Source of the DNA: Granulosicoccus sp.
GTDB lineage: Bacteria > Pseudomonadota > Gammaproteobacteria > Granulosicoccales > Granulosicoccaceae
Direction: 5' to 3'
DNA length: 60,327 nucleotides
Assembly: GCA_020627685.1 (NCBI GenBank)
Contig: JAHDGK010000030.1
Span: 1 to 60,327 of the forward strand
Each line of letters begins with the position of its first letter. Positions within the stretch are counted from its first letter, which is position 1. Both the position numbers and the translations under genes were made by a program. The notes beneath the pieces were generated by a model, which had not been told where the DNA came from, ran no database searches, and saw only the letters and a list, made by a program, of their open reading frames with translations. Positions 25,065 to 59,062 of this stretch are shown piece by piece.

Positions 25065-28000
25065 TTACAGGTTACGACGATACTGACCCCCGACTTCAAA
25101 AAGAACATCTGTCAGCTGTCCCAGCGAGCAAACCTCTACGGCATCGACCAATGCCGCAAAGACATTTTCATTTCTTATAGCGGTATCCCGTACCTTCGCT
25201 AACGCATCAGCTGAGGAATCAGCATGACGCTTATGAAAATCAGCAAGGCGATTAATCTGATCATTTTTCTCATCGTCATCGGAACGGGCTAATTCGATTT
25301 CTACAGGCTCATCACCCTCCGGGTTTCTGAACATATTGACGCCGACGATCGGTAAAGAACCGTCATGTTTTCGGTGCTCGTAGTACATAGACTCATCTTG
25401 AATCTTGCCCCGCTGATAGCCAGTTTCCATGGCGCCAAGTACACCACCACGATCAGATAAGCGGTCAAACTCGGCTAGAACCGCTGCTTCTACAAGATCG
25501 GTCAGCTCATCAATCACGAAACTACCCTGATTCGGGTTTTCATTGAACGCAAGCCCCCATTCCCGATTGATCACCAATTGAATTGCCATGGCGCGTCGAA
25601 CAGATTCATCCGTGGGGGTAGTGATGGCTTCGTCATAGGCATTGGTGTGTAGTGAATTACAGTTGTCGTAGACCGCTATAAGCGCCTGCAACGTGGTTCG
25701 TATGTCATTAAAAGCCATTTCCTGCGCGTGCAATGACCGACCCGATGTTTGAATGTGGTATTTCAATTTTTGGCTACGCTCGTTGGCGCCGTAACGCTCG
25801 CGCATAGCCACGGCCCAGATTCGGCGCGCCACACGGCCTAAAACGGTGTATTCGGGATCCATACCGTTACTGAAAAAGAACGACAAGTTCGGCGCAAAGT
25901 CATCAATCGCCATACCTCTGGCCAGATAACTTTCAACATACGTAAAGCCATTAGACAACGTCAGCGCAAGCTGCGTAATCGGGTTAGCGCCCGCCTCAGC
26001 GATGTGATAGCCGGAAATGGATACGGAATAAAAATTTCGCACATCGTTTTCAATAAACCATTCCTGTATGTCTGCCATCATTTTCAAACTGAATTCCGTT
26101 GAAAAAATGCAGGTGTTCTGACCTTGATCTTCTTTGAGGATGTCGGCTTGGACGGTTCCTCGCACACGCTTGTAGGTGTTTTGCCGCAACGTATCTATTT
26201 CCGCGCCTTCAGGTGATCGACCGTTTTGTGCAACAAAACGGTCGCGCTGCTGGCGATACGCAGTAACGAAATAGAAAGCAAGAATGGTCGGGGCAGGACC
26301 ATTGATCGTCATCGATACAGACGTTGCCGGGTCGCAAAGATCAAACCCGTCGTACAGCACCTGCAAATCTTCAACAGTGGCTATCGATACTCCGGAATTA
26401 CCCACTTTGCCGTAGATGTCCGGGCGTACGGCCGGATCATTGCCGTATAGCGTTACAGAATCAAACGCGGTGGACAGTCGCTTGGCAGGTGCATGCTCTG
26501 ACAAGGCTTTAAAACGTTTATTGGTTCTAAGCGGACCACCCTCGCCAGCAAACATACGCGTAGGATCTTCCCCGCTACGCTTAAACGGAAAAACTCCGGC
26601 AGTAAACGGAAAACGCCCCGGCAGGTTTTCGCGGCGAATCCAGGAGAGTAAATCGCCATGGTCTGAGTAGGTTGGCAATGAGACCTTTGAAATTCTGCTT
26701 CCAGATAGCGTGGTATGGAACGTCTGCGTCCGAATTTCTTTGTCACGAACGTAGGAAACCAACTCATCTTGTTCGTAGGCTGCAACGGTATCCGGCCACT
26801 CATCCAGCAGTGTCTGCGTGTCAGTCGTCATGGATTTTTGAGTGATGGATATCAGTGTCTGCAAGCGGGCAGACGCTGATTCCAACCCCGTTTCTAAGTC
26901 TGCAGAACGTTGCTCACCCGCGGCCATCCCATCCTTAGCGATTAGGCGCTGCGCGGTTTTTAAATGCTGAACCTGCCGCGCAAATTCAGCTTGCTCCAGG
27001 GTTTGAGCATGATAGCCCCGGACACAATCTGCGATATCCGACAAATAGCGCTGAGCCGATGTCGGGATGATGGTGGATTGCTTTGTACTGGATTTAACGT
27101 CAACCCTTGGCAGCAGCCCGTCTGTTAAACTCAGCCCCAACAACTTAAGTTGCTTCGCCAATTCCTGATAAAGCGCCGTCACGCCATCATCATTAAATCG
27201 CGCGGCGATTGTCCCGAATACCGGCATTTCATCGGGTGTTTGATTGAAGCGCTCATGATTGCGCTGAACTTGTTTGCTGACATCTCTCAGTGCATCAAGA
27301 CCCCCTTTTCGCTCAAGTTTATTGATAGCAATGACATCAGCAAAATCGAGCATATCGATTTTTTCAAGCTGACTGGCAGCCCCGAATTCAGGCGTCATCA
27401 CATATAAAGAAAGATCGCTAATACTGACAATGCCGGCATCTCCTTGCCCGATACCCGGCGTTTCGACAATGACAAGGTCCACACCGGATAAACGGCACGC
27501 GGCAATCATGCTGCTCAACGACTGTGGAACTTCCCCGCTGGCATCACGTGTCGCGATAGAGCGCATGAAAATTCGCGGATGCTCAATCGCATTCATGCGA
27601 ATTCGATCACCTAGCAACGCACCACCGGTTTTCCGGCGAGTGGGATCAATAGCTAGTAGTGCCACCGAGATCGAATCTGACTGGTCTAGTCGTAGCCGAC
27701 GGATTATTTCGTCAGTCACCGACGACTTTCCTGATCCACCCGTGCCGGTAATTCCCAATACCGGTGCTTTATGGGTTAGTTTTTCGCTTTGAGAGTGCAA
27801 TCGAGAAACTGCCGCTTCTGACAATTCATCATTTTCAATCGCCGTTAGCAAGGTGGCCAACGGGCGATGAGCCATCTCACTGAACGGTTCACTGGCTGGT
27901 GAAAACAACTCGTTGTAGACAGCTTCGTTCTGTTGGGTCGCGTTGCGGAGGGTCGCTTGTCGGGTATGTTCGATCATGTGATCGATCATTCCCTGGAGTC

Positions 28001-28403
28001 CCATACTCTGACCGTCTTGCGGTGAGTAAATTCTCGCTACCCCGTAATCATGTAATGCCGCTATCTCTTCGGGAATGATGACGCCCCCGCCGCCGCCAAA
28101 GACTTGAATGGAATCTGCTCCCCGTTCTTTCAGGCAATCGATCATGTAACGAAAATATTCTACGTGGCCCCCTTGATAAGAACTGATGGCGATACCTTGA
28201 GCATCCTCCTGAATAGCGGCAGAGACAATTTCGGCCACCGAACGGTTATGCCCCAGATGCACCACTTCCACCCCTGATGCCTGCAGCATGCGCCGCATGA
28301 TATTGATGGAAGCATCGTGGCCATCAAATAAACTCGCCGCCGTTATAAATCGCAGCGGAGCCATGGCCTTTGCCGGGGAAATTGACGCTGGGGCTTGGGA
28401 CAT
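25065..28403 (-). CDS. icmF: Fused isobutyryl-CoA mutase (cobalamin-dependent, with its own G-protein chaperone)
   Basis: A 1112-residue IcmF-type protein, the usual length. The N-terminal B12-binding domain (about 15-150) shows DGHDASINI with His29 as the cobalt ligand. The middle MeaI-like GTPase has a P-loop GTGGSGKS (220-227). The C-terminal mutase domain carries [20 protein letters not shown], where the Phe favours isobutyryl-CoA over methylmalonyl-CoA, and [13 protein letters not shown]. The enzyme interconverts isobutyryl-CoA and n-butyryl-CoA, and some family members also act on isovaleryl-CoA. It is divergent from the liuR-like gene and next to beta-oxidation genes, which supports a role in branched-chain amino acid breakdown. 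Confidence 0.95.
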   Translation of the reverse strand: [1112 protein letters not shown]

Positions 28404-53517: not shown

Positions 53518-55197
53518 TCAGCGCTCGTGCCCGGTCACTGAGCGCTGACTAGTTTCCCAGTCATCCGGTTCCCAGACAGGAACCTCCTCTGCCGGCAGAT
53601 GTTGGTTTCGAATCAAATCGGCAGCGCGTTCTGCAACCATCATACTCGGTGCATTCAGATTGCCATTGGTGATCACTGGAAAGATTGAAGAATCTACAAC
53701 ACGCAACCCCTCGCATCCGCGCACACGACAGTCGCTATCCAGAACCGCCATAGGGTCATCATCCGAACCCAGTTTAACGCTGCAAGAGGGATGATACGCG
53801 CTCTCAACATTAGCTTTAACCCAAGCATCGATACTCTCATCTGAGTTGATCTGCATACCCGGCTGTATCTCATTACCGCGAAACGGGCTGAGCGAAGGCT
53901 GTTGTAAAACCTCTCGAGTTAATCGAATGCAATCGCGCCAATCCTGCCGGTCTTGCTCGTGCTGCAAGTAGTTAAATAATATGCTTGGGGAGGCTAAAGG
54001 ATCGGCAGAAGTTACGGCCACGCGCCCGCGACTACTGGGCTTATTTGGACCGACATGCACTTGAAAACCATCACCGGCAAACGCCGCCCGTCCATCGTAT
54101 CGCATGGCACCCGGTAAAAAATGGTACTGGATATTCGGAGATTTCAGACCCGCTCTTGAACGAATAAATCCACAGGATTCGAAATGATTGGTCGCACCCA
54201 AGCCCTTTTTGGTAGCCACCCATCGGGCACCGATAAGCCCTTTACGCCACCAGGACAATTCCCGATTAAGTGATACCGGCTGCGTGCATTCATATTGGAA
54301 ATAAACTTCTAAATGGTCTTGCAGGTTTTCACCCACTCCCGGTGAATCAACTAGAACATCAATGGAGGCGTTTTCCAGTGTCTTCGCAGGACCAATACCA
54401 CTGCGCTGCAATATGGTGGGAGATCCGATAGAACCCGCGCTCAGTATCACCTCACCACGACTCAACAGTTTGATAGACCGACCCGCAGTGATGTATTCGA
54501 CTCCGATAGCGCGGGTGCCATCCATAATAACTTTATCGACATGCACTCTCGAGATAACTTTTAAGTTGGGACGCGAGCGAACCGGGTCTAGATAGCTACG
54601 AGACGTGGAAGCCCGGATGCCACCTTTCACCGACATATGCTTCTGACCAAATCCTTCTTGTTGATACCCGTTGTAATCTGCAGTGAACGGATATCCGGCA
54701 TCTTGACCGGCATCGATAAACGCTTGGTATAAAGGGTTAAGCCGCATATCGTTACCGGCGTTAACACCCACCGGCCCCTGCCCGCCCCGGTACCGGCTCT
54801 CGCCATGATGCCAGGACTCCAGCTTTTTATAGTACGGAAGACAGTTCGTGTAGTTCCACCCGCTCGCCCCAGCCGACTCCCATTCATCGATATCGCAAGC
54901 ATGTCCCCTGACAAAAGCCATGCCGTTGATTGACGAGGAACCGCCCAGCACTTTACCTCGCGGACAATCCAGACGCCGGCCATCAAGGCCTGGTTCTGCT
55001 TCTGATTCAAAGCCCCAATTGAATCGGGACATATTCATAGGAATTGACAGAGCCGTCGGCATGCGTACAAAAATGCTGTTATCAGAACCACCGGCTTCTA
55101 GCAGTACAACACTGACGGAAGGGTCTTCCGAGAGCCGATTCGCCAGAATACAACCAGCAGAGCCCGCGCCGACAATAACGTAATCGAATTCGTTCAT
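53518..55197 (-). CDS. betA: Choline dehydrogenase (GMC oxidoreductase)
   Basis: A 559-residue GMC flavoprotein matching BetA in length. The FAD-binding [16 protein letters not shown] starts the protein; [15 protein letters not shown] and the C-terminal SAYHPSCS (active-site His) and [17 protein letters not shown] complete it. It oxidises choline to betaine aldehyde and partly to glycine betaine. The preceding gene is choline sulfatase on the same strand, 18 bases away. No betB (betaine aldehyde dehydrogenase) or betI regulator is adjacent. Confidence 0.9.
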
Positions 55198-55215
55198 AGA
55201 CTAAATCCTTTGATC

Positions 55216-56784
55216 CTAATTGCTTCCGTGATTCATCGGCGGCGTCAGTGGCCGAAGCGGCACACGATTACCTGCTTCTACATCGTTTAAATCCAGATGA
55301 TTACGCATAAAACGCTCTGAAGCATCCTGAACCGGTTGATGATCCCAGGGCGTGTATCGACCTTGTCGTAAGGCTTCGTAGCACACAATGCGTCTTTGCT
55401 GATTCTCCCGGATGTCTTCATCGAGTACATCCAGATTCCAACGCTCATTCATGGTGTCAACAAAATGCTGAAGCGTTACAGCATGATTCGCATCTCCTGC
55501 CAGATTGTTTAACTCAAGAGGATCGTCTTCAAGGTTAAACAGTTGCATGGGATCGGCCTCACAATAAATGAACTTCCACGGACCCTGTCGCAACATAATC
55601 ATTGAAGAGACAGACCCTTCAGCCATGTATTCCGTAGCAATCATTCTATCGGTCTGGACATCGCCCATGGCAGCACTGACGAGTGACTGTCCATCGAGTG
55701 GCATACCCAGTTTGGAATCATCGATGCCTGCAAGCTCGAGTAGCGTTGGCAGAACATCCATTGCGGTTGCAGGCATTGATACGTTGTGAGGTTTGAATTT
55801 CCCGGGGGCTGCAAACGATAGCGGAATTCGAGAGGCACCTTCAAAGAAATTCATTTTGTACCACAGCCCTCGTTCACCTAGCATGTCGCCATGATCGGAG
55901 ACGAAAACGACCACCGTGTCATCGCTCATACCGCAGCTGTCTAGCGTGTCCAGTAACTCTCCAATCTTATCGTCAAGGTAGCTGATGTTGGCACAGTAAG
56001 CACGGCGTGCATTTTTCACATGCTCTGGTGTGACGACAAATCGATTCGCATCTACCGCATCGTGGATTCGTTGACTATGCGGATCACGCTGCCCGGTTTC
56101 TAATGCCGGTACTGCAGGTTCGGGAATATCCACACCTTCATATTTATCCCAATATTCAGGTCTGGCTGTATAGGGGTCGTGAGGATGAGTAAAACTCGCA
56201 GTTAAACAGAACGGACGGTCATCTCTCTTTCGCGCGATGTTGAGCAAACAACGTTTAGCGTGATACACAACTTCATCATCATACTCTAACTGATTGGAGG
56301 TTAACGCAACCCCAGCTTCGGTAACCGACGACAGATTGTGATACCACCAGTCAACTCTTTCAAATGGAACGCGCCAATCGGGAGTCCAACCAAAATCTGC
56401 TGGGTAGATATCGGTCGTTAATCGATCTTCAAAACCGTGTAGTTGGTCAGCACCCACAAAATGCATTTTCCCGCTCAGTGCGGTGTAGTAACCCGCGGCA
56501 CGTAAGTAATGCGCAAACGTGGGAAGGTTGGACGGGAACTCGGCTGCATTGTCATATACAGTGGTAGAGGACGGCAGCATTCCTGCCATAAAAGAACCGC
56601 GTGCGGGTGTACAAAGCGGGCTGGGAGAATACGTATTCGAAAAATTGACACTTCTCTCGCTTAACTTTCGTAGATTGGGAACATCTAAGAAGTCAGCGGG
56701 TCCATTCTCCCAAAACATACCGGTGAGTTGATCGACCATCAGGATTAAAAAATTCGGCTTGCTACTCATCAGTTTTTTACTCAA
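55216..56784 (-). CDS. betC: Choline sulfatase
   Basis: A 522-residue type I sulfatase. The formylglycine motif lies in PSPLCTPARGSF, with the metal ligands in LILMVDQLTG and VFVSDHGDMLGE. Length and the segment HFVGADQLHGFEDRL match BetC, which releases choline from choline-O-sulfate. The active Cys must be turned to formylglycine by a maturase not encoded here. It is 40 bases after the MttB-like gene. Confidence 0.9.
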   Translation of the reverse strand: MSKKLMSSKPNFLILMVDQLTGMFWENGPADFLDVPNLRKLSERSVNFSNTYSPSPLCTPARGSFMAGMLPSSTTVYDNAAEFPSNLPTFAHYLRAAGYYTALSGKMHFVGADQLHGFEDRLTTDIYPADFGWTPDWRVPFERVDWWYHNLSSVTEAGVALTSNQLEYDDEVVYHAKRCLLNIARKRDDRPFCLTASFTHPHDPYTARPEYWDKYEGVDIPEPAVPALETGQRDPHSQRIHDAVDANRFVVTPEHVKNARRAYCANISYLDDKIGELLDTLDSCGMSDDTVVVFVSDHGDMLGERGLWYKMNFFEGASRIPLSFAAPGKFKPHNVSMPATAMDVLPTLLELAGIDDSKLGMPLDGQSLVSAAMGDVQTDRMIATEYMAEGSVSSMIMLRQGPWKFIYCEADPMQLFNLEDDPLELNNLAGDANHAVTLQHFVDTMNERWNLDVLDEDIRENQQRRIVCYEALRQGRYTPWDHQPVQDASERFMRNHLDLNDVEAGNRVPLRPLTPPMNHGSN

Positions 56785-56824
56785 AAATTAGCTCATACAC
56801 CACGGTTTAAACTTTCCGATTTGA

Positions 56825-58393
56825 TTAAAAATCGGTCGCCACACCACCAGCGGTTTTTCGTTTTGATACAAATGCATCAAGCTCTTCTTTAATGGCCACA
56901 TCAAGCGATGGTTCTTCATAAGCAGCCAGTCGCTCTTTCCAGATTCTATTGGCTTTTTGCATAGCGTTAGGCTGGCCTGCTTCATCCCAGCTTTCAAAGT
57001 TACGCCAATCACTGAGAACGGGTGAATAAAATGCATCTTTGTATCGCTGTTGTGTGTGGTCAGTTCCAAAGAAGTGACCGCCCGGCCCTACTTCAGTAAT
57101 GGTATCGACCGCTAACGACGCTTCGCTGAAGTCCAGAGGTGCTAAGAACTCTGTCACCATTTGAAGCAGATCAATATCCAAGATGGTTTTCTCATAAGAA
57201 CAGCACAGCCCACCTTCCATCCAACCGGCGCCATGCTTAAGCATGTTCATGCCACCGTTAATAGCGCCCCAAAGTGAAAACACACTCTCATATGCCGCCT
57301 GCGCATCAACAGTATTTGCCGCACAAACGTTTGAGGTTCTGTAGGGAAAGTTATAGCGACGGGCTAACTGACCACCAATAATTTGAGCCTTCATATATTC
57401 AGGCGTACCAAACGCAGGCGAACCTGACTTCATATCAACGTTAGAAGTAAAGCCCCCATATACCGCGGGTGATCCGGGATTGACGATCTGACTGAACGCA
57501 ATACCCGCCAATGCTTCTGCATTTTGCTGAACCAGCGCTCCGGCAATGGTGACAGGCGCCATGGCACCAGACAACGTAAATGGTGTGATAACAACCGGTT
57601 GCCCCATGGACGACATTTCAATGATGCCTTGCATCATAGGAATATCCAGTTGCAAAGGTGAATTGGTGTTTATGACTGTCCAAACAGAGGGTTGAGTTTT
57701 GAATTCATCAACACTGACACCACGCCCGATACGGGTCATTTCTATCGCATCGCGATTACGCTCGGCACCTAAGGAATAAATGCAATACGATTTATCCGTT
57801 AGCGTGAGTAAATCGTAAACACAATCTAGGTGTCTTACAGATGCATGAACATCAACGGGTTCGCACGGGTACCCTCCGTTGCCATGTAAAACTGTATGTT
57901 GCTGTGACAGGCGAAGGAAATTTTGAAAGTCCTCACGATTACCGGTACGACGCCCTTTATCCATACACGAAGCATTCGGAGCGCTCGCCATCATAAAAAA
58001 GGCAAGATGATCGCCGCCGATGACAATGTTGTGAGCCGGGTTTCTCGCATGCAAGATAAACTGTGCGGGCACTGTGCTAATCAATTGCTCTATGAGTTCA
58101 GGTGAGAAATGAACTCGTATACCGTCTTTTCCTATTTCGGCTCCAGCCCGCTCCATCATTTCACGCGCTTCATCATGAAGTACTGCTATGCCGGTATCAC
58201 GGAGTAAACGTAATGAGGCTTCATGTATAGCTTCTAGTTCATCAGCAGATGCCACATCTACCGGTACATTTCTCCCACGCCTAGGCTGAGCAAACGGTTT
58301 TTGCTCAAAGCTACCAGCGACTGGAGCAGCACGACGACCGCGTCGCGAACGTCTTGCTCCACGCCCTTCCGATGATGAATTTGCAGAAGACAT
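56825..58393 (-). CDS. MttB-family trimethylamine-type methyltransferase, non-pyrrolysine
   Basis: A 522-residue member of the MttB superfamily (trimethylamine methyltransferase family) read straight through, with no in-frame TAG, so it is of the non-pyrrolysine class. It has an Arg-rich N-terminus (GARRSRRGRRAAP), then an IHEASLRLLRDTGIAVLHDEA segment typical of the family. Some non-Pyl members demethylate glycine betaine to a corrinoid protein (Desulfitobacterium MtgB). The neighbours are choline sulfatase and choline dehydrogenase, which would feed betaine. No corrinoid protein gene is in the window. Substrate is inference. Confidence 0.85.
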   Translation of the reverse strand: MSSANSSSEGRGARRSRRGRRAAPVAGSFEQKPFAQPRRGRNVPVDVASADELEAIHEASLRLLRDTGIAVLHDEAREMMERAGAEIGKDGIRVHFSPELIEQLISTVPAQFILHARNPAHNIVIGGDHLAFFMMASAPNASCMDKGRRTGNREDFQNFLRLSQQHTVLHGNGGYPCEPVDVHASVRHLDCVYDLLTLTDKSYCIYSLGAERNRDAIEMTRIGRGVSVDEFKTQPSVWTVINTNSPLQLDIPMMQGIIEMSSMGQPVVITPFTLSGAMAPVTIAGALVQQNAEALAGIAFSQIVNPGSPAVYGGFTSNVDMKSGSPAFGTPEYMKAQIIGGQLARRYNFPYRTSNVCAANTVDAQAAYESVFSLWGAINGGMNMLKHGAGWMEGGLCCSYEKTILDIDLLQMVTEFLAPLDFSEASLAVDTITEVGPGGHFFGTDHTQQRYKDAFYSPVLSDWRNFESWDEAGQPNAMQKANRIWKERLAAYEEPSLDVAIKEELDAFVSKRKTAGGVATDF

Positions 58394-58402
58394 CGCTTAT
58401 TC

Positions 58403-59062
58403 CTACTTAGTACCAAAGATACGATCGCCCGCATCTCCCAGTCCGGGAACGATATACCCGTGATCGTTTAATCGAGTATCAACAGCTGCTGTCACAACAG
58501 GGACATCCGGATGAGCTTCGTTAAACGCCTTTATGCCTTCAGGTGCTGAGATCAAGCAGACAAAGCGCATGTCTTTGGCCCCTCCTTCCTTCAAACGTTG
58601 GACAGCAGCAATAGCTGAATTTGCAGTAGCAAGCATTGGATCGACCACAACAATAAGGCGGTTTTCCATGTGGCTAGGCACTTTGTAGTAATACTCTACC
58701 GCCTGCAATGTTTCAGGGTCTCGATATAAACCAACATGCCCAACGCGGGCCGACGGTATCACATCTAGCATGCCGTCCAACATACCGTTACCGGCACGAA
58801 GAATAGAAATAAACGCCAACTTACGACCTTTTAAAACAGGTGCATCCATTGCCTCGACAGGAGTCTCTATCGGGAGATACTCTAGCGGTAGGTCTCGAGT
58901 CACTTCGTAACAAAGCAACCACGAAATTTCTCGCAAGAGCGCACGAAATGCTGATGATGACTGCTCTCGCCGTCGCATGAGTGTCAGCTTGTGTTGCACC
59001 AAAGGATGCTGAGCAATGGTTGCTTTTATACCTTTGTCCTTCAAGTCCTGTTCAGTCAGCAT
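58403..59062 (-). CDS. upp: Uracil phosphoribosyltransferase
   Basis: A 219-residue enzyme that makes UMP from uracil and [20 protein letters not shown], a PRPP-loop segment [15 protein letters not shown] and the C-terminal uracil site [17 protein letters not shown] are visible. The usual DPMLATGGS reads DPMLATANS here. Family length is about 208 residues, so a short N-terminal extension is present. It sits nine bases from the MttB gene and 33 bases downstream of ettA on the same strand. Confidence 0.93.

Follow-up and report, generated by a model that had tools for sequence, protein, structure and literature searches.

An MttB-family methyltransferase in a gene run with choline sulfatase and choline dehydrogenase in Granulosicoccus: a candidate corrinoid-dependent glycine betaine demethylase

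Aerobic marine bacteria were recently shown to demethylate glycine betaine via a corrinoid system, and the substrates of their extra MttB paralogues were left open (PMC12478193). The homologous system of Ruegeria pomeroyi, MtgBCD(E), has been proven genetically: mtgC and mtgD mutants failed to grow on glycine betaine, also when methionine was supplied, two PF06253 proteins increased on glycine betaine, and mttB is described as often, not always, close to the corrinoid genes, which is not so in R. pomeroyi (PMC12478193). In MtgB, residues Y94, N199, R309 and H345 have been proposed by docking as contacts of glycine betaine (PMC6855144). Here, a run of four minus-strand genes, upp, mttB, betC and betA, is described from a Granulosicoccus sp. 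genome of 4.93 Mb in 117 contigs (GCA_020627685.1, handled as G000), in which it lies on contig JAHDGK010000030.1 (C14); this entire contig of 60,327 nucleotides is referred to as the window. Through the clade-specific run, one such MttB paralogue type is connected with choline sulfate and with the oxidation of choline, which gives a concrete, testable substrate assignment, and it puts algal osmolytes, B12 and one-carbon supply together in one gene run.

Gene run in the window and in relatives

Corrinoid-dependent demethylation of a quaternary amine is very probably the function of the window MttB, and the case for glycine betaine as its main substrate is reasonable, though well short of firm. 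The explanation favoured, with moderate confidence, is a second, non-pyrrolysine and corrinoid-dependent, demethylase of glycine betaine or a near-analogue, encoded in an operon with betaine-making genes and using the corrinoid machinery encoded on another contig, C18. The run comprises the following genes.

58403-59062, minus strand: upp, uracil phosphoribosyltransferase (TIGR01091, 261 bits, cut-off 208)
56825-58393, minus strand: mttB, non-pyrrolysine MttB-superfamily methyltransferase, 522 amino acids (PF06253, 649 bits)
55216-56784, minus strand: betC, choline sulfatase, 522 amino acids (TIGR03417, 775 bits, cut-off 433)
53518-55197, minus strand: betA, choline dehydrogenase (GMC oxidoreductase), 559 amino acids (TIGR01810, 760 bits, cut-off 732)

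The coordinates of the open reading frames confirmed the arrangement given in a preliminary description of this DNA, with gaps of 9 (upp/mttB), 40 (mttB/betC) and 18 bases (betC/betA), and the matches to PF06253, TIGR03417 and TIGR01810 agreed with the identities it had assigned to MttB, BetC and BetA. The listed start of betC is a TTG, and its sixth codon is an in-frame ATG at 56769, with which the mttB/betC gap becomes 55. The gene arrangement points to a single upp-mttB-betC-betA transcript, in which upp is probably the first and metabolically unrelated gene. The window MttB was matched over its full length by PF06253 (residues 15–516, gathering score 25) and matched PDB entries 4yyc, 9yce and 2qne at E≤7e-96. 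It belongs to the non-pyrrolysine class, as had been proposed, since the pyrrolysine MttB model TIGR02369 gave 300 bits, under the cut-off of 525, and the frame of 522 codons holds zero internal stops, i.e. no in-frame amber. In BetC, the sulfatase motif C-x-P-x-R is present as CTPAR at residue 58, together with the C-terminal domain PF12411 (70 bits). BetA also passes PRK02106 (861 bits, cut-off 605), and of the two BetA-type matches in the genome (E≤1e-150) it alone exceeds the betA cut-off. The lack of BetI and BetB, earlier noted for the window, holds genome-wide at curated cut-offs, with top matches of 44 bits (cut-off 201) and 466 bits (cut-off 669), respectively; at E≤1e-100, the BetB model finds 11 aldehyde dehydrogenases in the genome. 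Another choline sulfatase-family gene is situated at C64:20692-22188 (575 bits, cut-off 433).

The reaction steps were drawn from homologues, above all from the R. pomeroyi work (PMC12478193). BetC would free choline from choline-O-sulfate, and BetA would oxidise choline to betaine aldehyde; the further oxidation to glycine betaine would fall to BetA itself or to BetA together with a general aldehyde dehydrogenase. This is the likely bet step, in agreement with the preliminary description. From glycine betaine, or from a carboxylated compound close to it, the window MttB would take one methyl group, with the cob(I)alamin of the C18-encoded MtgC-like protein as acceptor and dimethylglycine as the remaining product. 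The C18 pterin methyltransferase would hand the methyl group to tetrahydrofolate, the C18 MTHFR-like protein would oxidise the methyl-tetrahydrofolate, and RACo would re-reduce cob(II)alamin. Dimethylglycine may pass onward through DMGDH-like enzymes.

Conservation of the run was followed in 57 genomes (the own genome included), 35 of which had MttB at E≤1e-50, and neighbourhoods were taken for 23 relatives with an orthologue at 59–89% identity. A 134-residue fragment of G001 (72%) was not counted as an orthologue, and loci L077–L088, holding C2-type paralogues, were scanned only for the query genes. The order upp-mttB-betA was found in 10 of the 23 relatives (G004, G006, G007, G010, G011, G013, G014, G015, G017 and G022), whose MttB orthologues were 73–89% identical to the window protein; the upp of G014 was found by tblastn, and the contig of G013 ends within betA. 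In four of the ten (G004, G006, G007 and G017) betC lay between mttB and betA, and in the six others, all of which carry a choline-sulfatase-family gene elsewhere in the genome, mttB and betA were 3 to 158 bases apart. All ten had upp upstream of mttB, with an overlap of 4 bases in four of them (distances and overlaps refer to longest-frame starts). An FKBP-like gene followed betA in seven, the contig ended there in two, and one had another gene. As this order recurs in 10 of 23 relatives, the upp-mttB-betA association is more than chance. The bet linkage is a trait of one clade of the genus, with mttB-betA as the steady core and betC as the variable part.

Corrinoid partners and MttB paralogues

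Genes for a corrinoid protein and its activator had been described as not visible, which is true of the window; both are, however, present on contig C18, so that the case of a genome without any corrinoid partner, which the preliminary description had named as refuting its reading, does not apply. Cobalamin use, which it had read from an IcmF gene, agrees with the domains of that protein, and the dedicated corrinoid machinery is present besides.

C18:92822-93388: MtgC-like stand-alone corrinoid protein, 236 amino acids, with domains B12-binding and B12-binding_2, both over the Pfam cut-off
25065-28403 of the window: IcmF, identity backed by domains

On one strand of C18, the MtgC-like gene is accompanied by genes for a DUF1638 protein (PF07796, 100 bits, cut-off 27), a small PF13769 protein, a DUF5981 protein, MTHFR, a pterin-binding methyltransferase in the role of MtgD (PRK07535, 360 bits, cut-off 259) and a RACo-type activator (PF14574, 307 bits, cut-off 27). 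The top model for the MtgC-like protein was NF047996 (MtgC), at 213 bits under a cut-off of 370; the C18 partners were named from their Pfam matches and from the match to the pterin methyltransferase model. The occurrence of these partners in one same-strand run supports the favoured explanation. Some 8 to 11 kb away from this run, measured at its RACo end, there are genes for a GbdR-like regulator (452 bits, cut-off 480), for the MttB of C18 and for a BHMT/MtgE-like protein; such BHMT homologues have been argued to be MtgE (PMC12478193). A full-length MetH is encoded on contig C95 (1719 bits, cut-off 1011). No GbcA-type oxygenase over the cut-off was found among the six PF00848 Rieske proteins of the genome (115–149 bits, cut-off 670), Rieske proteins lacking PF00848 not being searched. 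The betaine oxygenase route was rejected with all six so far under the cut-off, and this was counted for the corrinoid-dependent route.

A RACo gene was found in 33 of the 35 genomes with MttB (the own genome included) and in one of the 22 without (G049), counts that ignore kinship; relatedness is part of the explanation of this co-occurrence, which was counted for the favoured explanation. The two MttB genomes lacking RACo, G010 and G025, are 86% and 81% complete. RACo and MttB are both absent from two same-family genomes (G031 and G034) and both present in one of another family (G052). In three of 34 genomes (G002, G009 and G021) the RACo match was split in two within one open frame of 716–728 amino acids, as though the C-terminal domain of these proteins contained inserted or diverged sequence.

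In total, eight MttB homologues were identified in the genome at E≤0.001, the window gene counted. The C18 MttB is 67.6% identical to PDB 4yyc, which we take to be from Sinorhizobium meliloti, and 45.2% identical to MtgB (9yce, named glycine betaine methyltransferase in PDB); the corresponding identities of the window MttB are 39.0% and 36.0%. In a FastTree tree of 34 sequences, with pyrrolysine MttB as the outgroup and some weak inner nodes, the window type, the C2 paralogue, G024 and G052 (22 sequences) were split from the other 12 with a support of 1.000; G024 and G052 (48%) were aligned and placed in the tree without being counted as orthologues, and L091 supplied one row. Neither the window MttB nor the C18 MttB formed an exclusive clade with the characterised MtgB in this tree. 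In its rooted form, 9yce joined neither the window group nor the 4yyc/C18 group (0.976), and therefore the tree alone cannot tell which paralogue is the true MtgB.

Residues N199, R309 and H345 of MtgB are retained in all 80 window-type proteins listed in a scan of species genomes, whose best 80 loci had 58–89% identity and were mostly from Alphaproteobacteria. Tyr94 is retained in the C18 paralogue and in 4yyc. Phe353 of MtgB is Gly in all 80 listed window-type proteins, and likewise in C18 and 4yyc. With the three predicted contacts kept and Tyr94 replaced in the window type, its pocket is predicted to be intact on the carboxylate side and altered on the methyl side; the kept contacts were counted for glycine betaine.

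Further MttB paralogues have other surroundings. On contig C42 (L021:1198-11622), the MttB is a divergent one in which Glu takes the place of H345; its neighbours are DMGDH-like, arginase-family, ADI/DDAH-like and choline-type ABC permease (under cut-off) genes, and its substrate looks to be another methylated compound, perhaps of the guanidino kind. On contig C66 (L019:6815-12839), genes for an FAD oxidoreductase and an aldehyde dehydrogenase flank an MttB; a DHDPS-family gene is nearby, a GntR-like gene was recognised by eye, and the set resembles a proline- or hydroxyproline-betaine pathway; C66 also carries two of the PF00848 Rieske proteins. A glutamine-synthetase-like gene paired with an FAD oxidoreductase was seen near MttB both on C18 (L014:16438-19113) and in a Comamonas metagenome-assembled genome (MAG; L157:1162-3957), with identities of 32% and 36% between the respective members.

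Neighbours of the 80 listed loci were recorded out to 9 kb, or as far as the contig reached; the closest named relative among them was an uncultured Granulosicoccus sp. (L119, 89%). DMGDH-like genes, by which are meant FAD oxidoreductases with a GcvT-like part that passed no NCBIfam cut-off where scanned, occurred at 36 loci, BHMT/MtgE-like genes at 18, RACo at five and MtgC at three, and at least one of the four at 41; these neighbours were counted for glycine betaine as the substrate. The bet genes were found at four loci, all of Granulosicoccus or Granulosicoccaceae (betA at four, truncated with its contig in one case, and betC at one), and a fifth Granulosicoccaceae locus, L123, had none. 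In L148, L190 and L193, the MtgC beside the window-type MttB is 76–78% identical to that of C18, which makes the C18 MtgC a plausible partner of the window MttB.

From the 80 listed, 15 genomes were hand-picked for a check of paralogues and corrinoid proteins. All 15 had a corrinoid-family match in a frame of under 300 amino acids, and 12 had a C18-type MttB at no less than 60% identity alongside the window type; Mesorhizobium muleiense (L126) is a culturable example with both types. Of the others, G063 carries a fragment at 70% besides its C18-like copies at 52%, and the two MttB of G058 are both nearer the window type. In the third, the Comamonas MAG (G068, 2.1 Mb), the single MttB at E≤1e-60 is of the window type and is followed by a DMGDH-like gene, soxB (641 bits, cut-off 529) and soxA (1187 bits, cut-off 1164), i.e. 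the downstream betaine pathway. This was counted for the favoured explanation, although a second MttB could be missing from the MAG assembly. In a Cocleimonas MAG (L165:1-5643), window-type and C18-like MttB genes stand in tandem before a DMGDH-like gene, which suggests complementary substrates or a pair.

Substrate of the window MttB

Several observations weigh against glycine betaine as the substrate; most doubt comes from the overlap in role with the C18 MttB and from the loss of the tyrosine. By identity, pocket and neighbourhood we favour the C18 MttB as the better MtgB candidate (425 bits against MtgB, compared with 325 for the window MttB), so that the window run does not hold the most MtgB-like MttB of the genome, and a further enzyme for glycine betaine would be redundant; 12 of the 15 picked genomes have both types. 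The position of Tyr94, the proposed cation-pi residue of MtgB, is Ala in the window MttB, and among the 80 listed relatives Ala in 72, Gly in eight and Tyr in none; in the tree, moreover, the window type stands as a separate group that includes neither MtgB nor 4yyc/C18. On the side of the partners, the C18 corrinoid and activator proteins are under the NCBIfam cut-offs for MtgC, AcsV and RamA, the C18 MttB lies about 9 kb from the corrinoid genes, and the window mttB is on a different contig from them. The C18 BHMT-like protein passes the NCBI betaine--homocysteine model (461 bits, cut-off 338), and Bhmt might contribute to betaine demethylation alongside the corrinoid route. The 36 DMGDH-like neighbours are a raw count. 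Linkage of MttB homologues to bet genes in relatives, on which the preliminary description had staked its proposal, proved divided: beside the 10 linked relatives, neither betC nor a close betA was found next to mttB in 13 of the 23 (one of which has a weaker betA homologue, at 38% and under the cut-off, 2.3 kb off, and two of which have betC about 9 and 11 kb off), and 76 of the 80 listed loci are not bet-linked.

The same points bear on the alternatives. Less probably than in the favoured explanation, the corrinoid-dependent demethylation by the window MttB would be that of another quaternary amine (for example a larger betaine or a sulfonium), and the bet adjacency would reflect loose osmolyte clustering. 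Such a change of substrate would fit the replaced Tyr94 beside the kept, proposed carboxylate contacts, the separate tree group, the co-occurrence with the C18 type and the window-type mttB genes of other genera without bet genes, and in Eubacterium the MttB superfamily has branched into enzymes for proline betaine, carnitine, butyrobetaine and phosphocholine (PMC12478193, PMC12155760). It is at odds with mttB adjoining betA, or being parted from it by betC alone, in 10 of 23 relatives at the short distances given above, with the DMGDH-like neighbours and with the single MttB of the Comamonas MAG. That MttB instead acts before BetA, demethylating choline-O-sulfate, an acidic ester of choline, or choline so that BetC frees dimethylaminoethanol and BetA oxidises this to dimethylglycine, follows the gene order mttB-betC-betA, and MthB is known to take phosphocholine, not choline, an acidic group being thought necessary (PMC12155760). 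Yet betC is missing from the run in six of the ten bet-linked relatives (though a family gene exists elsewhere in all six) and from within 9 kb at 79 of the 80 listed loci, and the window BetA passes the choline dehydrogenase cut-off, which together make this order of events improbable.

A related proposal makes the window type a separate specificity class within MttB, in which the proposed cation-pi Tyr has become Ala and which, in this operon, would demethylate choline-O-sulfate directly, with sulfate taking the place that phosphate has in the phosphocholine used by MthB; BetC and BetA would then give dimethylglycine, and no free glycine betaine would arise. This is very improbable. Equally little probability is given to a neutral grouping, in which a betC-betA pair was inserted downstream of an mttB already behind upp and there is no common pathway. 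The betC-betA pairs of G003, G008 and G019, which are away from any window-type mttB, and the mttB genes without bet genes in other genera speak for this, but the order is kept in ten relatives whose orthologues are 73–89% identical, and mttB-betA persists with or without betC. Removal of a methyl group from betaine or a related quaternary amine, as first proposed, stays the best reading; the bet linkage, confined to one clade, cannot alone name the substrate.

Comparison with known systems

No description of a betC-betA-mttB run was found in the literature consulted, i.e. the best open-licence matches of many, including the available parts of PMC4744692, PMC12478193 and PMC12155760; in the portion of PMC12188728 at hand, Granulosicoccus is mentioned once, without such a system. 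The type of system is already known (PMC12478193), and the bet-linked MttB clade and its operon are new members of it.

The closest counterpart is MtgBCD(E) of R. pomeroyi, with which the present genome shares a PF06253 methyltransferase, an MtgC-type corrinoid protein, a pterin methyltransferase and an MTHFR-type MetF2, as well as RamA/RACo, DUF1638 and an MtgE/BHMT homologue. Both have several MttB paralogues per genome, up to seven as reported (PMC12478193) and eight here. Unlike in R. pomeroyi, the window MttB stands in a run with betC-betA and apart from the 4yyc/C18 group, and a full-length MetH is also present. MtgB of Desulfitobacterium hafniense (PDB 2qne according to PMC6855144; 9yce) belongs to the same non-pyrrolysine superfamily, and N199, R309 and H345 are kept, whereas the window MttB is 36% identical to 9yce, with Tyr94 replaced by Ala and Phe353 by Gly. 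PDB 4yyc, a "Putative trimethylamine methyltransferase" of the same superfamily, is 39% identical to the window protein and has its close relative in the C18 paralogue (67.6%), not in the window protein. Phosphocholine demethylation by MthB/MthK of the gut acetogen Eubacterium limosum likewise pairs an MttB member with a choline-modifying enzyme, a kinase in place of the sulfatase and dehydrogenase found here (PMC12155760). Finally, betABC of R. pomeroyi and roseobacters (PMC4744692) has the same betC and betA for the use of choline sulfate and choline, in contrast to which the present genome is without betB or betI over the cut-off.

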